Of a DNA stretch of 64,000 bases, positions 31,928-41,799 are shown piece by piece (the first letter of the stretch is position 1; each line of letters opens with the position of its first letter). The translations under genes were made by a program, and so were the position numbers. The stretch comes from Ferroacidibacillus organovorans (GTDB taxonomy: Bacteria; Bacillota; Bacilli; Alicyclobacillales; SLC66), in assembly GCF_001642725.1 (NCBI RefSeq), contig NZ_LSUQ01000011.1, forward strand, positions 1-64,000, in the 5' to 3' direction. The notes under the pieces were generated by a model. It did not search any database. It was not told where the DNA came from and saw nothing but the letters and a program-made list of their open reading frames with translations.

Positions 31928-33430
31928 TCAACCTCTGCGAATGAGCGTTTTTGTCTTAAAAATACTCGGCCGTCCATCTTTTCGATACAAAGGTGCACGA
32001 ATCAATACGCCTTTGATGCCCTCCCAGTCAAACGGCAAGAAGGGCCACAGATAAGGAACACCAAACGACTTTGTCGTCGCTAGCAGCACGATAAGTCCGA
32101 TGATGCCAAGGATGAAGCCAATCCAACCACCGACCGATGTAACGATGATTAAGATGAAGCGAACGAAGCGATTGGCAGTAGACAGCTCATGTGAAGATGT
32201 GGCAAACTGCGCCACCATTGCAGAGCCCATGAAGACGAGCACCTCAGGCGAAACGAGGTTCATCGAGACGGCAAACGGTCCAAAGACGAGACCGGCAACG
32301 ATACCTGTCGCCGTGGCAAGCGCCGTCGGGGTATTGATCACCGCACGCTCAAAGAGGTCTACGGCAAGCTGCGCCAAGAGAAACTGAACGGCGAGCGGAA
32401 GTGAGAGCGGCGCCGGATCGACCAAACGCGCCAACCAGCGCGGCTCGACCTTTCCAAGTTGCGCCGCAACAATAAAAAAGGATGGCGAGAACACCGAAAT
32501 GAGCGCACCAAGAATCGACACCACGCGCATATACGTCCCATTCGTCGGGTATACGTGATAGTCTTCCGGGTGATGGATGTGATTAAACAGCGTGCTCGGC
32601 GCAATGATCACTTCTGGCGTCGTATCGACGACGATAACGATCTGTCCTTCCATCAGACATGTCGCCGCGACATCAGGCCGCTCCGTGTACCGAACGATCG
32701 GGTACGGATTCCACTTAACCTTTGCGATAAACTCCGTCACCGCTTGCTCACCCATCGCGACAACATCCGTATTGATGGATTTGAGTTCCTTTTTTACATT
32801 GTCGACGAGCGCGTCATTTGTCACATCTTGGAGATACATGACACTCACGTCCGTCTGTGAACGCGTCCCCACTTGAATGAGCTCAACGCGCAACCGTGGA
32901 TCGCGCAGTCGCCTGCGAATCAGCGCGACATTCATAAGCATCGTCTCGACAAACCCGTCACGCGGGCCGCGCACGACCCGCTCAACTTCCGGTTCAGCAA
33001 TGGAGCGCATCGGGTAGATCCGGGTGTCGATCATGAGCGTCTCGTTATACCCGTCGAGGAATATGACAAGCGGACCCGACAGGATGTAGCGAACTGCGTC
33101 TTTCATGTTGTTCACTTTTTGCACTTGAACAAAACTGATCGTGACATTCAAATAGTTTACAAGCTCATCAATCGTAAAATCGCGCGCAGGGTGGCGCGCT
33201 ACAAACTCTTTCAAGGACATCTCAACGTTTTCAAGGATCAGCACCATGTTCATCGTCAAGAAAAAGCCGTTTGCCGTGTATCCCGTCATGCTGATTTGTT
33301 CGTAGACAAACGGTTTGGCGATGAGATCCCAACTGACCCCTATTCCCAGCAGTTGCTTGAGAAATGCGTCATTCTGTTGAAGATTTGTTGAAATGGAAAC
33401 TTGTTCAAGCGACTCCATCTCCGTCGTCAA
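31928..33430 (-). CDS. GerA-family stage V sporulation protein AF-like
   Basis: A stand-alone GerA-family protein of 500 residues. It shares the GerA pattern (YILSGPLVIFLDGYNETLMID, given in part; RVVRGPRDGFVETMLMNVAL; DVSVMYLQDVTNDALV) and about five C-terminal helices, but lacks the hydrophilic N-terminal tail of the receptor at 3.9 kb. The first part (QLLGIGVSWDLIAKPF, GFFLTMNMVLILENVE) fits SpoVAF, which helps Ca-dipicolinate release during germination. No spoVA genes are adjacent. It starts with TTG after GGAGGAG and has a sigma-G-like promoter. Confidence 0.85.
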   Translation of the reverse strand: MTTEMESLEQVSISTNLQQNDAFLKQLLGIGVSWDLIAKPFVYEQISMTGYTANGFFLTMNMVLILENVEMSLKEFVARHPARDFTIDELVNYLNVTISFVQVQKVNNMKDAVRYILSGPLVIFLDGYNETLMIDTRIYPMRSIAEPEVERVVRGPRDGFVETMLMNVALIRRRLRDPRLRVELIQVGTRSQTDVSVMYLQDVTNDALVDNVKKELKSINTDVVAMGEQAVTEFIAKVKWNPYPIVRYTERPDVAATCLMEGQIVIVVDTTPEVIIAPSTLFNHIHHPEDYHVYPTNGTYMRVVSILGALISVFSPSFFIVAAQLGKVEPRWLARLVDPAPLSLPLAVQFLLAQLAVDLFERAVINTPTALATATGIVAGLVFGPFAVSMNLVSPEVLVFMGSAMVAQFATSSHELSTANRFVRFILIIVTSVGGWIGFILGIIGLIVLLATTKSFGVPYLWPFLPFDWEGIKGVLIRAPLYRKDGRPSIFKTKTLIRRG

Positions 33431-33481: not shown

Positions 33482-33620
33482 GTGAGTCTCGCAAACTCAC
33501 AAGCCACCCAGTTAGCATGTTTGATTATCACTGAAAGCTTAGGTACACTATATATAGGTAAGTCGACTTCTCATCCTAACTTCGCGATGAATCGACCGCA
33601 GCAAAGGGGGGGATACGCAT

Positions 33621-33929
33621 ATGATGAAGACGATACAAACGGCGGAATACGATAAACTTGTCGGATCCTCCACAAAACCCGTCATTCTTGACTTCTCAGC
33701 GGATTGGTGACCGGGCTGTCGAATGTTGAGACCGGTGGTCTCTAAAATTGCAGGAGAAGATGCAACCGTTGACTATTACTATGTGGATGTCGATCAGTCG
33801 CCTGAACTCGCCATGAAATTTGGCGTTCAGAGCATCCCGACCATGATCTTGATTAAAGACGGAAAAGAAGCGGGTCGCAAGATCGGCGCCGCGCGGGAAG
33901 CAGACGTCCTGAAATTCGCTCACTCTTAA
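33621..33929 (+). CDS. Thioredoxin-like selenoprotein (active site W-U-P-G-C, TGA as Sec)
   Basis: A complete thioredoxin fold of 102 residues if the TGA at 33708-33710 is read as selenocysteine. Before it: KPVILDFSADW; then U-PGCRMLRPVVSKIAGE; later YYYVDVDQSPELAMKFGVQS, IPTMILIKDGKEAGR with the cis-Pro. The TGA replaces the first, attacking Cys of the C-x-x-C motif. Both halves are in the same frame, with no other stop or gap. ATG 33621 follows AAGGGGGG at about ten bases. A gene caller would report only the 68-residue C-terminal piece (33723-33929). Single-gene unit with its own terminator. Role inferred: disulfide or peroxide reduction. Confidence 0.88.
33711..33742 (+). promoter_or_regulatory. 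Candidate bacterial SECIS element in the thioredoxin-like gene
   Basis: After the TGA, GAGACC (33728-33733) pairs perfectly with GGTCTC (33737-33742) around a GGT loop. The loop starts 24 nucleotides after the TGA and opens with G, as bacterial SECIS models require (loop about 16-37 nt from the UGA, G among its first two bases). It also lies within codons, as bacterial SECIS elements do. Confidence 0.65.
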
Positions 33930-33955
33930 TTCGCGTACACTCCGTAACCATTGCA

Positions 33956-33995
33956 AGGGCGCTCGCCTGGAGAAATCCGACGGGCGCTCTTTTTC
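33956..33995 (+). terminator. Intrinsic terminator after the thioredoxin-like selenoprotein
   Basis: A ten-base stem with wobble pairs (33956-33965 with 33981-33990) followed by TTTTT. Confidence 0.7.
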
Positions 33996-34052
33996 ATCAT
34001 CGTGTAAGCTAGAGGTACGTTCATATTTACACGTTTGGGAGGTATTCAATCG

Positions 34053-35033
34053 ATGATTCGAGTGGCTATGATGAGCAAGTGGCACGTTCACGCGACCGAT
34101 TATCTACGCGAGGCGAACGCCCATCCTGAAGTTGAAGTCGCCGCCGTGTGGGACGAAGACCCTGCCCGCGGGCGCGCCTTTGCGCGCGAGATCGGTGTAC
34201 CTTTTTATGATTCTACGTCTTCACTCTACCGCGAGGCAGCTATTGACGGAGTCATCGTCGATACGCCGACAAACATGCACCCTCAGATCATCGCGGAAGC
34301 GATCCAGAATAAGAAGCACGTTTTTAGCGAGAAGGTGCTCGCGCTCAACGCGAGTGACGCGATTCATTTGACTGACCTTGCCCATACGTCAGGTGTTCAT
34401 CTGATGCTTTCCCTGTCTCGTCTCTGCGCGCCATACACCGTGTATGCCGAGTCCCTACTGCAGGAAGAAGCGCTCGGACGCGTCACGTCGTTTCGCTGCC
34501 GCGTCGCGCATGATGGCTCTGTGCCAACCGATGAACATGCACAAGGCTGGCTGCCCGCCCACTTCTACGATCCGATCACGTGTGGAGGCGGCGCACTGAT
34601 TGACCTTGGCGCACATCCCATCTATCTCTCAAACCGCCTCGCAGGTCCTGTACGCGCACTCTCGGCGCGTCTTGAAGCGACGCTTGGTCACGAGGTCGAT
34701 GACAATGCGACCGTAATGATTGAGTACGCGTCAGGCGCGCTCGGTCTCCTTGAGAGCAGCTTCGTCTCGGGAGGCAGCCCCTTTCTTATGGAAATTCACG
34801 GGACGAAGGGTTCCCTGCTGATCGAGAATGAGTCAGCGCGCGTGCGCTTTGGGCGTGGGCCACTTGTTGCAGTGAACCTTCCTCCTGAGCGACGCAGCGC
34901 GATGACGCAGTGGGTGGATGCGATTCTGCGCGACACGGCTCCCGAGATCACGCCAGACGACATGATCGAACTGACACGTGTCAATGAACTGGCGCAGCAA
35001 GCGCATCGCGAAGGACGGCGTGTCACACGCTAA
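34053..35033 (+). CDS. Gfo/Idh/MocA family NAD(P)-dependent oxidoreductase
   Basis: Dehydrogenase for sugars, inositols or related compounds. Rossmann part: MIRVAMMSKWHVHATDYL (the glycine loop is atypical), VAAVWDEDPARGRAFA, DGVIVDTPTNMHPQI, and the catalytic Lys in HVFSEKVLALN (usual form EKP). C-terminal domain: GGGALIDLGAHPIYLSNRLAG with the catalytic His region. 326 residues. GGGAGG lies 11 bases before the ATG at 34053. It is alone; the substrate cannot be told. Confidence 0.85.
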   Translation: MIRVAMMSKWHVHATDYLREANAHPEVEVAAVWDEDPARGRAFAREIGVPFYDSTSSLYREAAIDGVIVDTPTNMHPQIIAEAIQNKKHVFSEKVLALNASDAIHLTDLAHTSGVHLMLSLSRLCAPYTVYAESLLQEEALGRVTSFRCRVAHDGSVPTDEHAQGWLPAHFYDPITCGGGALIDLGAHPIYLSNRLAGPVRALSARLEATLGHEVDDNATVMIEYASGALGLLESSFVSGGSPFLMEIHGTKGSLLIENESARVRFGRGPLVAVNLPPERRSAMTQWVDAILRDTAPEITPDDMIELTRVNELAQQAHREGRRVTR

Positions 35034-38805: not shown

Positions 38806-39198
38806 CTATTTGGCCTGTTCAATCGCTTGAATCAGCGTGCTTTCCACACCCTGCGCGATTTCGTTCAAGGACGCCACTCCGACAACATCCATCAATGCAG
38901 TCGGTTTAGGCAATCCGATCTGCGTTTTTCCATCCACTTCATAAACAACAATTTTACACGGAAGAAAATAACCTACAAGCGGCGTTTCAGAAAGCACTTT
39001 CTTCGCTTCGTGCGGGTTGCATACCTCAAGCACTCGATACGGCATGTCAAGCGGAACGCCTTTTTCTTCAAGCTTCGCGCGAAGGTCGAGCTTCCAGAGC
39101 ACGCCAAATTTATGTTCCTTTAAAGCGGCTTCCAATGCTTCAACCGCTTCGTCCACCGACTTATTCGTGGTTACAGAATAGTGAAATGACGTCATCAT
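38806..39198 (-). CDS. DUF302 family protein
   Basis: 130 residues with the DUF302 fold: FHYSVTTNKSVDEAVEALEA, LRAKLEEKGVPLDMPYRVLEV (in part), CNPHEAKKVLSETPLVGYFLPCKIVVYE. The family is found near sulfur and thiol stress genes; the neighbour at 39.3 kb is a rhodanese/metallo-beta-lactamase protein, in line with this. Two cysteines (VCNP, LPCK) are in the usual places. GGGGGAAGA precedes the ATG pair at 39198/39195. Confidence 0.85.
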   Translation of the reverse strand: MMTSFHYSVTTNKSVDEAVEALEAALKEHKFGVLWKLDLRAKLEEKGVPLDMPYRVLEVCNPHEAKKVLSETPLVGYFLPCKIVVYEVDGKTQIGLPKPTALMDVVGVASLNEIAQGVESTLIQAIEQAK

Positions 39199-39317: not shown

Positions 39318-40472
39318 TTATCCGTGAACAGCGCAGCGGTTTGGACCAATCTCCATCTCACGCTGCTCATCTTCACCTGGCTGCAATTTGCCCATGTTTG
39401 TCAGCCGAATTTCTTGATAGGCATTCGGTTGCGGTGGAAGATTTTCCGTCACCAGTTTATGGAAAATTTTCTCATCCGACACGAGAAGTCCCGAGTTTGT
39501 CGCGTACAATTGTCCAAGATTGGCGCAGACGCATCCATTCTCATTCATTTCATCACCGTGTGCATAATGCGCCGGAAGCAACGTCAAGTTTGCAGATAGC
39601 CCTTGGTACGTTTCATAGAGGGATTTCCGCAAATCGGCTGCCCAATCACCCGCCGCACCCGCGAGATCCGGTCTGCCAATCGATTGGACAAACAGGATAT
39701 CCCCGGAGAGTAGATAAGCGTCGTCAACGATCAGCGATGTACTGCCGATCGTGTGTCCTGGCGAATAAAGTGCAGAAATTTTAACTTCTGTCAAACCGAC
39801 GGTGATGACCTCGCCATCTTCCAGCGGATGATAAGAAAATTGTGCATCCGTCGCATCTTTTGGAGGAAGCCAATACGTCGCGCCGAGTTTCTCAGCGAGC
39901 ACTCTGCCGCCAGAAATGTGATCCGCGTGCAAGTGAGTGTCGAGCGTATGCTTGATCGTGACGCCGAGTTCTTTTGCAAACGACTCATACACATCGGTCA
40001 TGCGTGCTGTGTCCACAATCGCCGCTTCCCCATCCGATACGATCATGTAAGAGAGGCAGCCTTTGCCAACGCGCACGAATTGGTACAAAGCGCCATTTTC
40101 CGCGAGATTCCCAACTTTTACGGGGCGCAGATACTCGCTCCACGTTTTCATACCGCCCGCGAGGTATGTGACATTGTCACGCCCTGCCTCAATAAGTTGT
40201 TCTGCCACAAATTGAGAAGAACCCTCTTTGGCACAAACGACGAGAACAGGTTGGTCGCTTGGCAGTTGCTCAAGCGCAGCCTCGACACCGTCGAGCAGAT
40301 CAAAATATGGAATGTTGACGCTCGTCACGGCTGGACCTTCAATCTTCCAATCCGCGAATGCATCTTCGTTGCGAACGTCCAGAATCCATAGCGGCTCTTT
40401 GCGAAGCACTTTTTCAAATACTTCAGCCGAGGTCTGTGTTGACGCGTTCGTCTCTACTGTCATTTCCGACAC
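39318..40472 (-). CDS. Rhodanese - metallo-beta-lactamase fusion (YrkH-like persulfide/sulfur hydrolase)
   Basis: 384 residues. N-terminal rhodanese domain: [19 protein letters not shown] and the active-site loop [12 protein letters not shown] with the persulfide Cys. C-terminal metallo-beta-lactamase domain: [48 protein letters not shown] and [11 protein letters not shown]. This order matches B. subtilis YrkH and relates to ETHE1/CstB persulfide dioxygenases of the sulfide stress response. GTG 40472 is used, since GGGGGGAACAGT lies just before it; ATG 40463 is possible. The long open frame further upstream overlaps the MFS pseudogene and is not coding. Confidence 0.88.
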
Positions 40473-40552
40473 ACTGTTCCCCCCTATCATATACGGTATG
40501 GGGTATATATTAATCGGAAGGAGTCGTCGAGTCAATACCCTTAGGCGTATCT

Positions 40553-41799
40553 CTAAATCGATGCGCGATGCGGATTCATCGCCGTATCCTTCATCATAAC
40601 CAGTGCAAAACCGGTGACTAATGAGGTAAATGCCATGAAAGAACCTGCCCAAAATCCGATCGTTCGCGCCGGAACTACGACGAGCAAAAATCCGGTCGCC
40701 AGCATGGAAAGAGAAATCACGACACTCGAGATTGTCCCGAGCAGCGAAAAAATTCTCCCGTGAAACACAGTCGGCGCCTCTCTCATCAAAAGCGTGGTCG
40801 TCACGGCGTTGCCAATCCCTGCGCTCATCGTCGCAAAAGACAAAAAGAGGGCTGCTCCCCACAGCACAGGCGACAGACTAACCGCGACATGGCAAATTCC
40901 CTCGAAGAGATACGCTGCGGCCGTGATGATCCGAAGCCTCTTTACAAGGCGCGATGCGATGAACCCACTTGCCAAAAACCCTATACCGAGCGCGCCATAG
41001 AGAACTCCGACACCCCAGTTTCCACTGCGAAAACCTGATATCCGTAGACACTGAGAAGCGTATTGACGGCACCCCCGCCAATTGCCCAGAGAATCGCTTG
41101 CACGCTGACGAGTTGAATGAGCCTCGACTGACGAAAGACAAACCAAAACGAGTGCGAGGATGCTTGAGAATGGGTTCGCTGCCGTTTTTTCTCTAGCCCC
41201 TCAAAACTACCGCGACCACGGTTGGGTGAGCTTGGCAGGTTGATAGACCCGCAGATGAATCCTGATGCTAAAAACGAAACAGCGTTGATGGCAAACGCCG
41301 TGTCAAAACCGAAGCGCGCGCTGATGAGTCCGCCGAGTCCCGCACCGAACGCCATGACAAGGCCGCCGAGCGATTGTTCGAGCGCATTGGCGACTGCGAG
41401 ATGCTGCGGGTGTACCAGTTGTGGAATCACGGCGGTTCGCGCTGGAGAAAAAAGCGCCGAGAAGACGACGAGACCCGCGGTCGCCACATAGGCGATCCAG
41501 ACTTGTGACACAGAGTTTACAAGTAGCAAGGACAGCGCAATAAAAAAACGGGAAAAGTCTGCGAATACAAGGATCGTTTTACGATGCAACCGGTCAGCCA
41601 AAATTCCGCCAAGTGGTCCCATGACAAGGTATGGAAACGTGCGCACTGCCAAAGCAACGCCAACGGACAGACTCGATCCTGTAAGATGAAGGAGGAGGCT
41701 GAGAAGTGCCACACTGTTGAACCAGTCACCGATTCCGCTCAACAGACTCGCAAAAAGCAACCGCCGATATGCAGGCTCGGCGCGAAGGAGGTTCATCAT
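40553..41799 (-). pseudogene. MFS transporter broken by one frameshift
   Basis: The first part (41799 to about 41030) encodes the N-terminal half of an EntS-like MFS exporter (LLFASLLSGIGDWFNSVALL, GGILADRLHRKTILVFAD). The reading frame then continues as VETGVSEFSMARSV to a stop at 40981, whereas the neighbouring frame carries the true continuation (GNWGVGVLYGALGIGFLASG to the end at 40553). The junction is at about 41022-41032, consistent with loss of one base. No slippery heptamer is present, so it is read as a mutation or sequencing error, not programmed frameshifting. Confidence 0.8.

Follow-up and report, generated by a model that had tools for sequence, protein, structure and literature searches.

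The window analyzed here, a stretch of 64,000 nucleotides of Ferroacidibacillus organovorans (contig NZ_LSUQ01000011.1, positions 1 to 64,000, forward strand), contains a thioredoxin frame interrupted by a TGA codon, and the question that it raises is whether this codon is a defect or the site where selenocysteine (Sec) is inserted. The original prediction held that the TGA is the sole fault of an otherwise complete frame and occupies the first place of the C-x-x-C motif. Positions 33621-33929 of the plus strand comprise 102 codons followed by a TAA stop, with a translation that reads MMKTIQ...DFSADW-U-PGCRMLRPVV...LKFAHS, and the TGA at 33708-33710 is the single internal stop. The features of the locus and its flanks are the following:

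31928-33430, minus strand: GerA-type spore germination protein, divergent upstream neighbor, outside the system.
33603-33612, plus strand: Shine-Dalgarno-like AAAGGGGGGG, 8 nt ahead of the ATG, from sequence reading.
33621-33929, plus strand: predicted Sec thioredoxin gene, ATG start at 33621 (or 33624), from frame reading, Pfam match, orthologues and structure model.
33708-33710, plus strand: TGA for the predicted Sec30, first position of W-U-P-G-C and putative attacking residue, with Cys33 as putative resolving residue.
33728-33742, plus strand: candidate SECIS hairpin GAGACC[GGT]GGTCTC, 6 bp stem with the triloop at 33734-33736, within the coding sequence.
33955-33994, plus strand: terminator-like hairpin and T run, 3' of the thioredoxin gene, from folding.
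34047-35033, plus strand: Gfo/Idh/MocA oxidoreductase, downstream neighbor beyond the terminator-like stem, outside the system.

The GerA-type gene indicates that the host is a spore former. The gene was also said to have its own ribosome site and terminator, and both signals were located. The terminator-like stem has 11 bp and a folding energy of -21.6 kcal/mol before the T run; it is absent from the mechanical terminator scan, which covered loops of 3-8 nt. As anticipated, the listing of open reading frames yields at this locus only a downstream fragment of 68 amino acids (33723-33929). A mechanical scan of the TGA codons lying outside the larger ORFs gave no obvious second selenoprotein in the window.

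With Cys replacing Sec, the protein matches the Pfam family Thioredoxin (PF00085) over its whole length (residues 3-99; 83.7 bits, E 1.1e-23; gathering score 23.5). The NCBIfam equivalog model TIGR01068 scores it at 91.4 bits, just below the cut-off of 96.8, and therefore the protein is not filed there. The structure model is that of a classical thioredoxin (pLDDT 93.9, pTM 0.87) and superimposes on E. coli Trx (2trx) with a TM of 0.92. Positions 30, 33 and 73 are invariant, the last one being the putative cis-Pro according to the sequence.

The components needed for Sec insertion are encoded in the same genome (G000; 3.03 Mb, 96.8% complete, 98 contigs), since selA (567 bits), a full-length selB (372 bits), selD (388 bits) and tRNA-Sec(UCA) were all found. 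The tRNA-Sec scores 63 bits versus a cut-off of 47, and ARAGORN assigns to it the anticodon TCA. The selA gene adjoins selD, which carries an in-frame TGA of its own (SGUGCK; L101:5790, contig C34) and is thus a selenoprotein gene itself, with the hairpin GGTCC[GGC]GGACC 12 nt past its TGA. The hairpin top CC[GGN]GG is common to selD and the thioredoxin gene, as predicted if a single SelB reads both of them. Formate dehydrogenase, the commonest bacterial selenoprotein, was ruled out as a further selenoprotein of this genome, because neither of the two strong matches to its alpha subunit (C84:3444-5450 and C3:21854-23860) contains an internal TGA; it appears to be made here without Sec.

These data bear on the possibility that the TGA is read as another amino acid, e.g., as Trp under code 4, or by a non-specific readthrough. 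The frame would be open under such a code too. However, TGA otherwise acts as a normal stop here, closing 19 of the 47 larger ORFs in the window, and the genome has the tRNA-Sec together with selA, selB and selD. In addition, the codon aligns with the catalytic Cys of thioredoxins, not with a Trp, and a conserved hairpin lies downstream of it. We consider this reading extremely improbable.

The comparison with relatives carries most of the weight in favor of Sec. The TGA occupies the identical codon in all the 26 Bacilli orthologues retrieved (19 genera, 12 families; the window genome and 25 others), down to 35-40% identity. When 151 related genomes were searched, each of the best 14 matches contained one in-frame TGA, the matches lacking TGA scored below these 14, and 18 genomes carried the TGA form in all. 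A sample of 399 Bacilli gave the TGA form in 21 genomes with E values from 1e-34 to 4e-44, followed by a gap and then by the Cys thioredoxins (best 2.5e-29).

An error in the sequence, with TGA standing for TGC or TGT, might be suspected from a single genome assembly in 98 contigs, but an independent genome of the same genus (86% DNA identity over 3.3 kb around the gene) has TGA at this position, and so do 24 other Bacilli genomes in separate assemblies. This agreement among independent assemblies refutes the error, whose probability we regard as negligible.

If a nonsense mutation had struck the active-site codon of an ordinary thioredoxin gene and inactivated it, one genome would show just what is seen here, i.e., a single TGA in a Cys-type motif. 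Such a pseudogene is refuted by the conservation, as a decaying gene would not retain a lone stop at the same position in 12 families. Moreover, there is purifying selection on both sides of the TGA: between G000 and genome G001, 15 codons differ synonymously and 1 non-synonymously downstream of it, and 3 and 2, respectively, upstream. The closest relatives were never seen with Cys at this position, and the gene occurs only alongside selA. What speaks for decay comes from two other genomes. The copy in G124 (L087, C3:97626-97898, minus strand) has a TAG directly before the Sec TGA (TAG-TGA for TGG-TGA), which could reflect a dead gene, a misassembly or suppression; that in G091 has a degenerate active site (D-S-U-F-S-C). 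A few copies with degenerate sites such as these two may be decaying, and for the window gene itself we judge a pseudogene very unlikely.

The real product could also be the 68-residue fragment, started at the internal ATG at 33723, with the TGA acting as a true stop. Automatic ORF calling gives this fragment, and it would also account for the selection downstream of the TGA. Nevertheless, the internal ATG is found in only 4 of the 26 genomes, the others having CAA, CGA, CGG, TAC, etc., at this codon, and the fragment would be devoid of the first strand and helix and would have no catalytic site. Conservation extends to the 29 codons that precede the TGA and have their own ribosome site, which makes the fragment as a true product hardly credible. 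The full-length Sec frame is the reading that we retain.

Among the orthologues, the usual motif is W-U-P-x-C, where x is G, S, A, H or Y. The exceptions, besides G091, are A-D-G-U-P-M-C in G051 and N-G-U-G-P-C in place of D-W-U-P-x-C in three genomes of one genus (G352, G359 and G375; L165, L166 and L167), which thus have the canonical dipeptide order and no Trp, and whose hairpin has the same shape as elsewhere (type I, see below). Outside the Bacilli, one genome from a different class of the phylum (G734; L169, C1:298324-298590, minus strand) also has TGA at this codon, and a related Sec thioredoxin with the motif APWUPHC is predicted there. Across about 800 genomes of the phylum, no Cys version of this branch was found. 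The Cys matches fetched from the genomes of the relatives are mostly WCGPC, and those with WCPxC were all distant thioredoxin-like proteins from other groups. The only intermediate candidate for a Cys orthologue (G235:C2) turned out to be an ordinary WCGPC thioredoxin. The family tree, which places two divergent Cys sequences among the Sec forms, is weakly supported because the protein is short.

The original prediction also described a perfect 6-bp hairpin with a G-first triloop 17 nt past the TGA, and this element is indeed present at 33728-33742, the first loop base being 23 nt from the TGA. In synonymous recodings that preserve the peptide, a G-first hairpin with at least 6 Watson-Crick pairs at an allowed distance appeared in 0.05% of the draws, and in 10% of them (p 0.10) when G-U pairs were allowed. 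The folding energy of the stretch is ordinary (z -0.66). Taken singly, the hairpin is suggestive as SECIS evidence, and hence the conclusion rests on the comparison with relatives.

In that comparison, a G-first-loop hairpin follows the TGA in 27 of 27 genes, i.e., the 26 from Bacilli and that from G734, and it adopts two shapes. The type I hairpin, G[A/G]G[A/G]CC[GGT]GGTCTC, starts 17 nt past the TGA, with 23 nt from the TGA to the loop, as in the window gene; in G091 its stem is GAGATC/GATCTC. The type II hairpin, C[A/G][A/G]CTG[GNNC]C[A/G]GT[C/T]G, places the loop at 18 nt from the TGA and is the one found in G734. Both distances are inside the range of 16-37 nt given for the apical loop of bacterial SECIS elements (PMC10778597). 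The six core pairs are formed in every sequence of both types. There are two-sided compensatory changes, CG to UA in G091 and GC to AU in the type II hairpins of G076, G080 and G411, as well as many G-U exchanges that keep the core pairing, and shifting the two partners against each other by 1-3 columns makes the pairing break down. Control (a) for the pairing was exceeded only moderately because the element is so conserved; the frozen codons are therefore the stronger sign. Of the 16 type I genomes, 15 retain the codons CCG GTG GTC under the hairpin, whereas most other conserved sites employ 3-6 codons and other conserved Pro and Val positions mostly three or four.

The distribution of the gene points in the same direction. 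All the sampled carriers have selA, in 18 of 18 cases versus 64 of 151 genomes overall in the first sample (p 4e-8) and in 21 of 21 versus 85 of 399 in the sample of the class Bacilli (p 9e-16); these p-values assume independence among the genomes, an assumption that related genomes violate, and the conclusion is safe despite this kinship because 12 families are involved. For selB, the search succeeded in all the carriers of the first sample but one (17 of 18), namely G009, a genome that is 73% complete. About a quarter of the sampled Bacilli that have selA (21 of 85) carry the Sec thioredoxin, and with 26 genomes and 12 families the suggestion that such a protein would be unusual in spore-forming Bacilli did not hold.

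The frame, the TGA, the hairpin, the machinery, the conservation and the co-occurrence with selA are all read directly from the genomes. Taken together, the machinery, the conservation, the covariation of the putative SECIS element and the co-occurrence support the central proposal of a thioredoxin with Sec in place of its attacking Cys, and we are highly confident in predicting that this locus is a functional thioredoxin selenoprotein gene.

In bacteria, Sec is inserted when SelB, sitting on the hairpin of the mRNA, brings the Sec-tRNA to the UGA, and in thioredoxins the first residue of the motif is the nucleophile that attacks and the second one resolves. From this established knowledge, we infer how decoding, redox cycle and regulation may proceed here. 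SelD would supply selenophosphate, with which SelA would convert Ser-tRNA(Sec) into Sec-tRNA(Sec). While attached to the hairpin at 33728-33742, SelB would deliver this tRNA to the UGA at 33708, so that the thioredoxin of 102 residues could be finished; with little selenium, translation would end after 29 residues. Sec30 would then attack disulfides, or other oxidized sulfur or selenium species, and Cys33 would resolve the mixed intermediate, leaving a Sec-Cys bond to be recycled by a reductase.

The genome also encodes an ordinary Cys thioredoxin, and the Sec form is thus a second thioredoxin, probably specialized or regulated by selenium. Peroxiredoxin, methionine sulfoxide reductase or sulfur intermediates are the ordinary candidates for its substrates. 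The Sec protein resembles this TrxA (WCGPC; C5:14268-14546) in the fold, the cis-Pro loop (SIPT) and the positions of the redox residues. In contrast, the identity is about 35%, and TrxA has a Cys codon (TGT), the C-G-P-C motif and no need of a SECIS hairpin. The dipeptide P-x in place of G-P suggests that the redox potential may be unlike that of TrxA.

Sec thioredoxins as such are known. Table 1 of PMC13188914 includes one (UxxC, PF00085) among the prokaryotic selenoproteins with experimental verification and refers for it to Kim et al. (2015), and Sec thioredoxins were identified bioinformatically in Geobacter, Anaeromyxobacter, Carboxydothermus and Treponema denticola in the 2006 survey, which credited Bacillales with only three selenoprotein families (PMC1794560). 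Our literature search found no paper on a Sec thioredoxin in Bacilli. When compared by motif and Pfam family, the window protein shares with the known ones the thioredoxin domain, the Sec at the first position of CxxC and the UGA codon; unlike them, it belongs to a branch in Bacilli that has W-U-P-x-C in nearly all its members and no Cys member seen. The families SaoT (NF040730), HUIPC (NF047660) and GOS_C (NF045500) likewise combine a thioredoxin-like fold with UxxC (Table 1 of PMC13188914) and have models of their own, none of which is among the families matched at E 0.001 by the window protein and its relatives.

By these sequence comparisons, the Bacilli form is possibly a new branch of the known kind of Sec thioredoxin, a distinct lineage that uses only Sec. 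Since the formate dehydrogenase matches of this genome lack a TGA, the thioredoxin may be a main reason for keeping Sec decoding here. We put forward, with more doubt than conviction, the wider idea that a Sec-only W-U-P-x-C branch that never reverts to Cys could be one of the main genes keeping the Sec machinery in many Bacilli, including the window genome. No specific NCBIfam model was found for this branch, so this selenoprotein common to 26 sampled Bacilli genomes has probably been entered in many genomes as a fragment or a pseudogene. A branch without a Cys counterpart makes it possible to test the advantage of Sec over Cys in a small disulfide reductase.

We also considered the neighborhood as a clue to partners of the Sec thioredoxin, and this was rejected because the neighbors differ among genomes (HAD hydrolase, NUDIX, lipoate ligase, symporter, DUF302, DsrE-like and cupredoxin proteins). 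The gene consequently seems to form a unit by itself. Within one genus (G142, G272, G352, G359 and G375), its distance from selA is about 6-10 kb or less. About 5 kb from the window gene there are a DUF302 protein (38806-39198; L100:5623-6015) and a rhodanese/metallo-beta-lactamase fusion (39318-40862), and in G107 a DUF302 gene is immediately upstream of the Sec thioredoxin. The DUF302 and rhodanese-fusion neighbors are possibly sulfur redox genes, or their presence may be due to chance.
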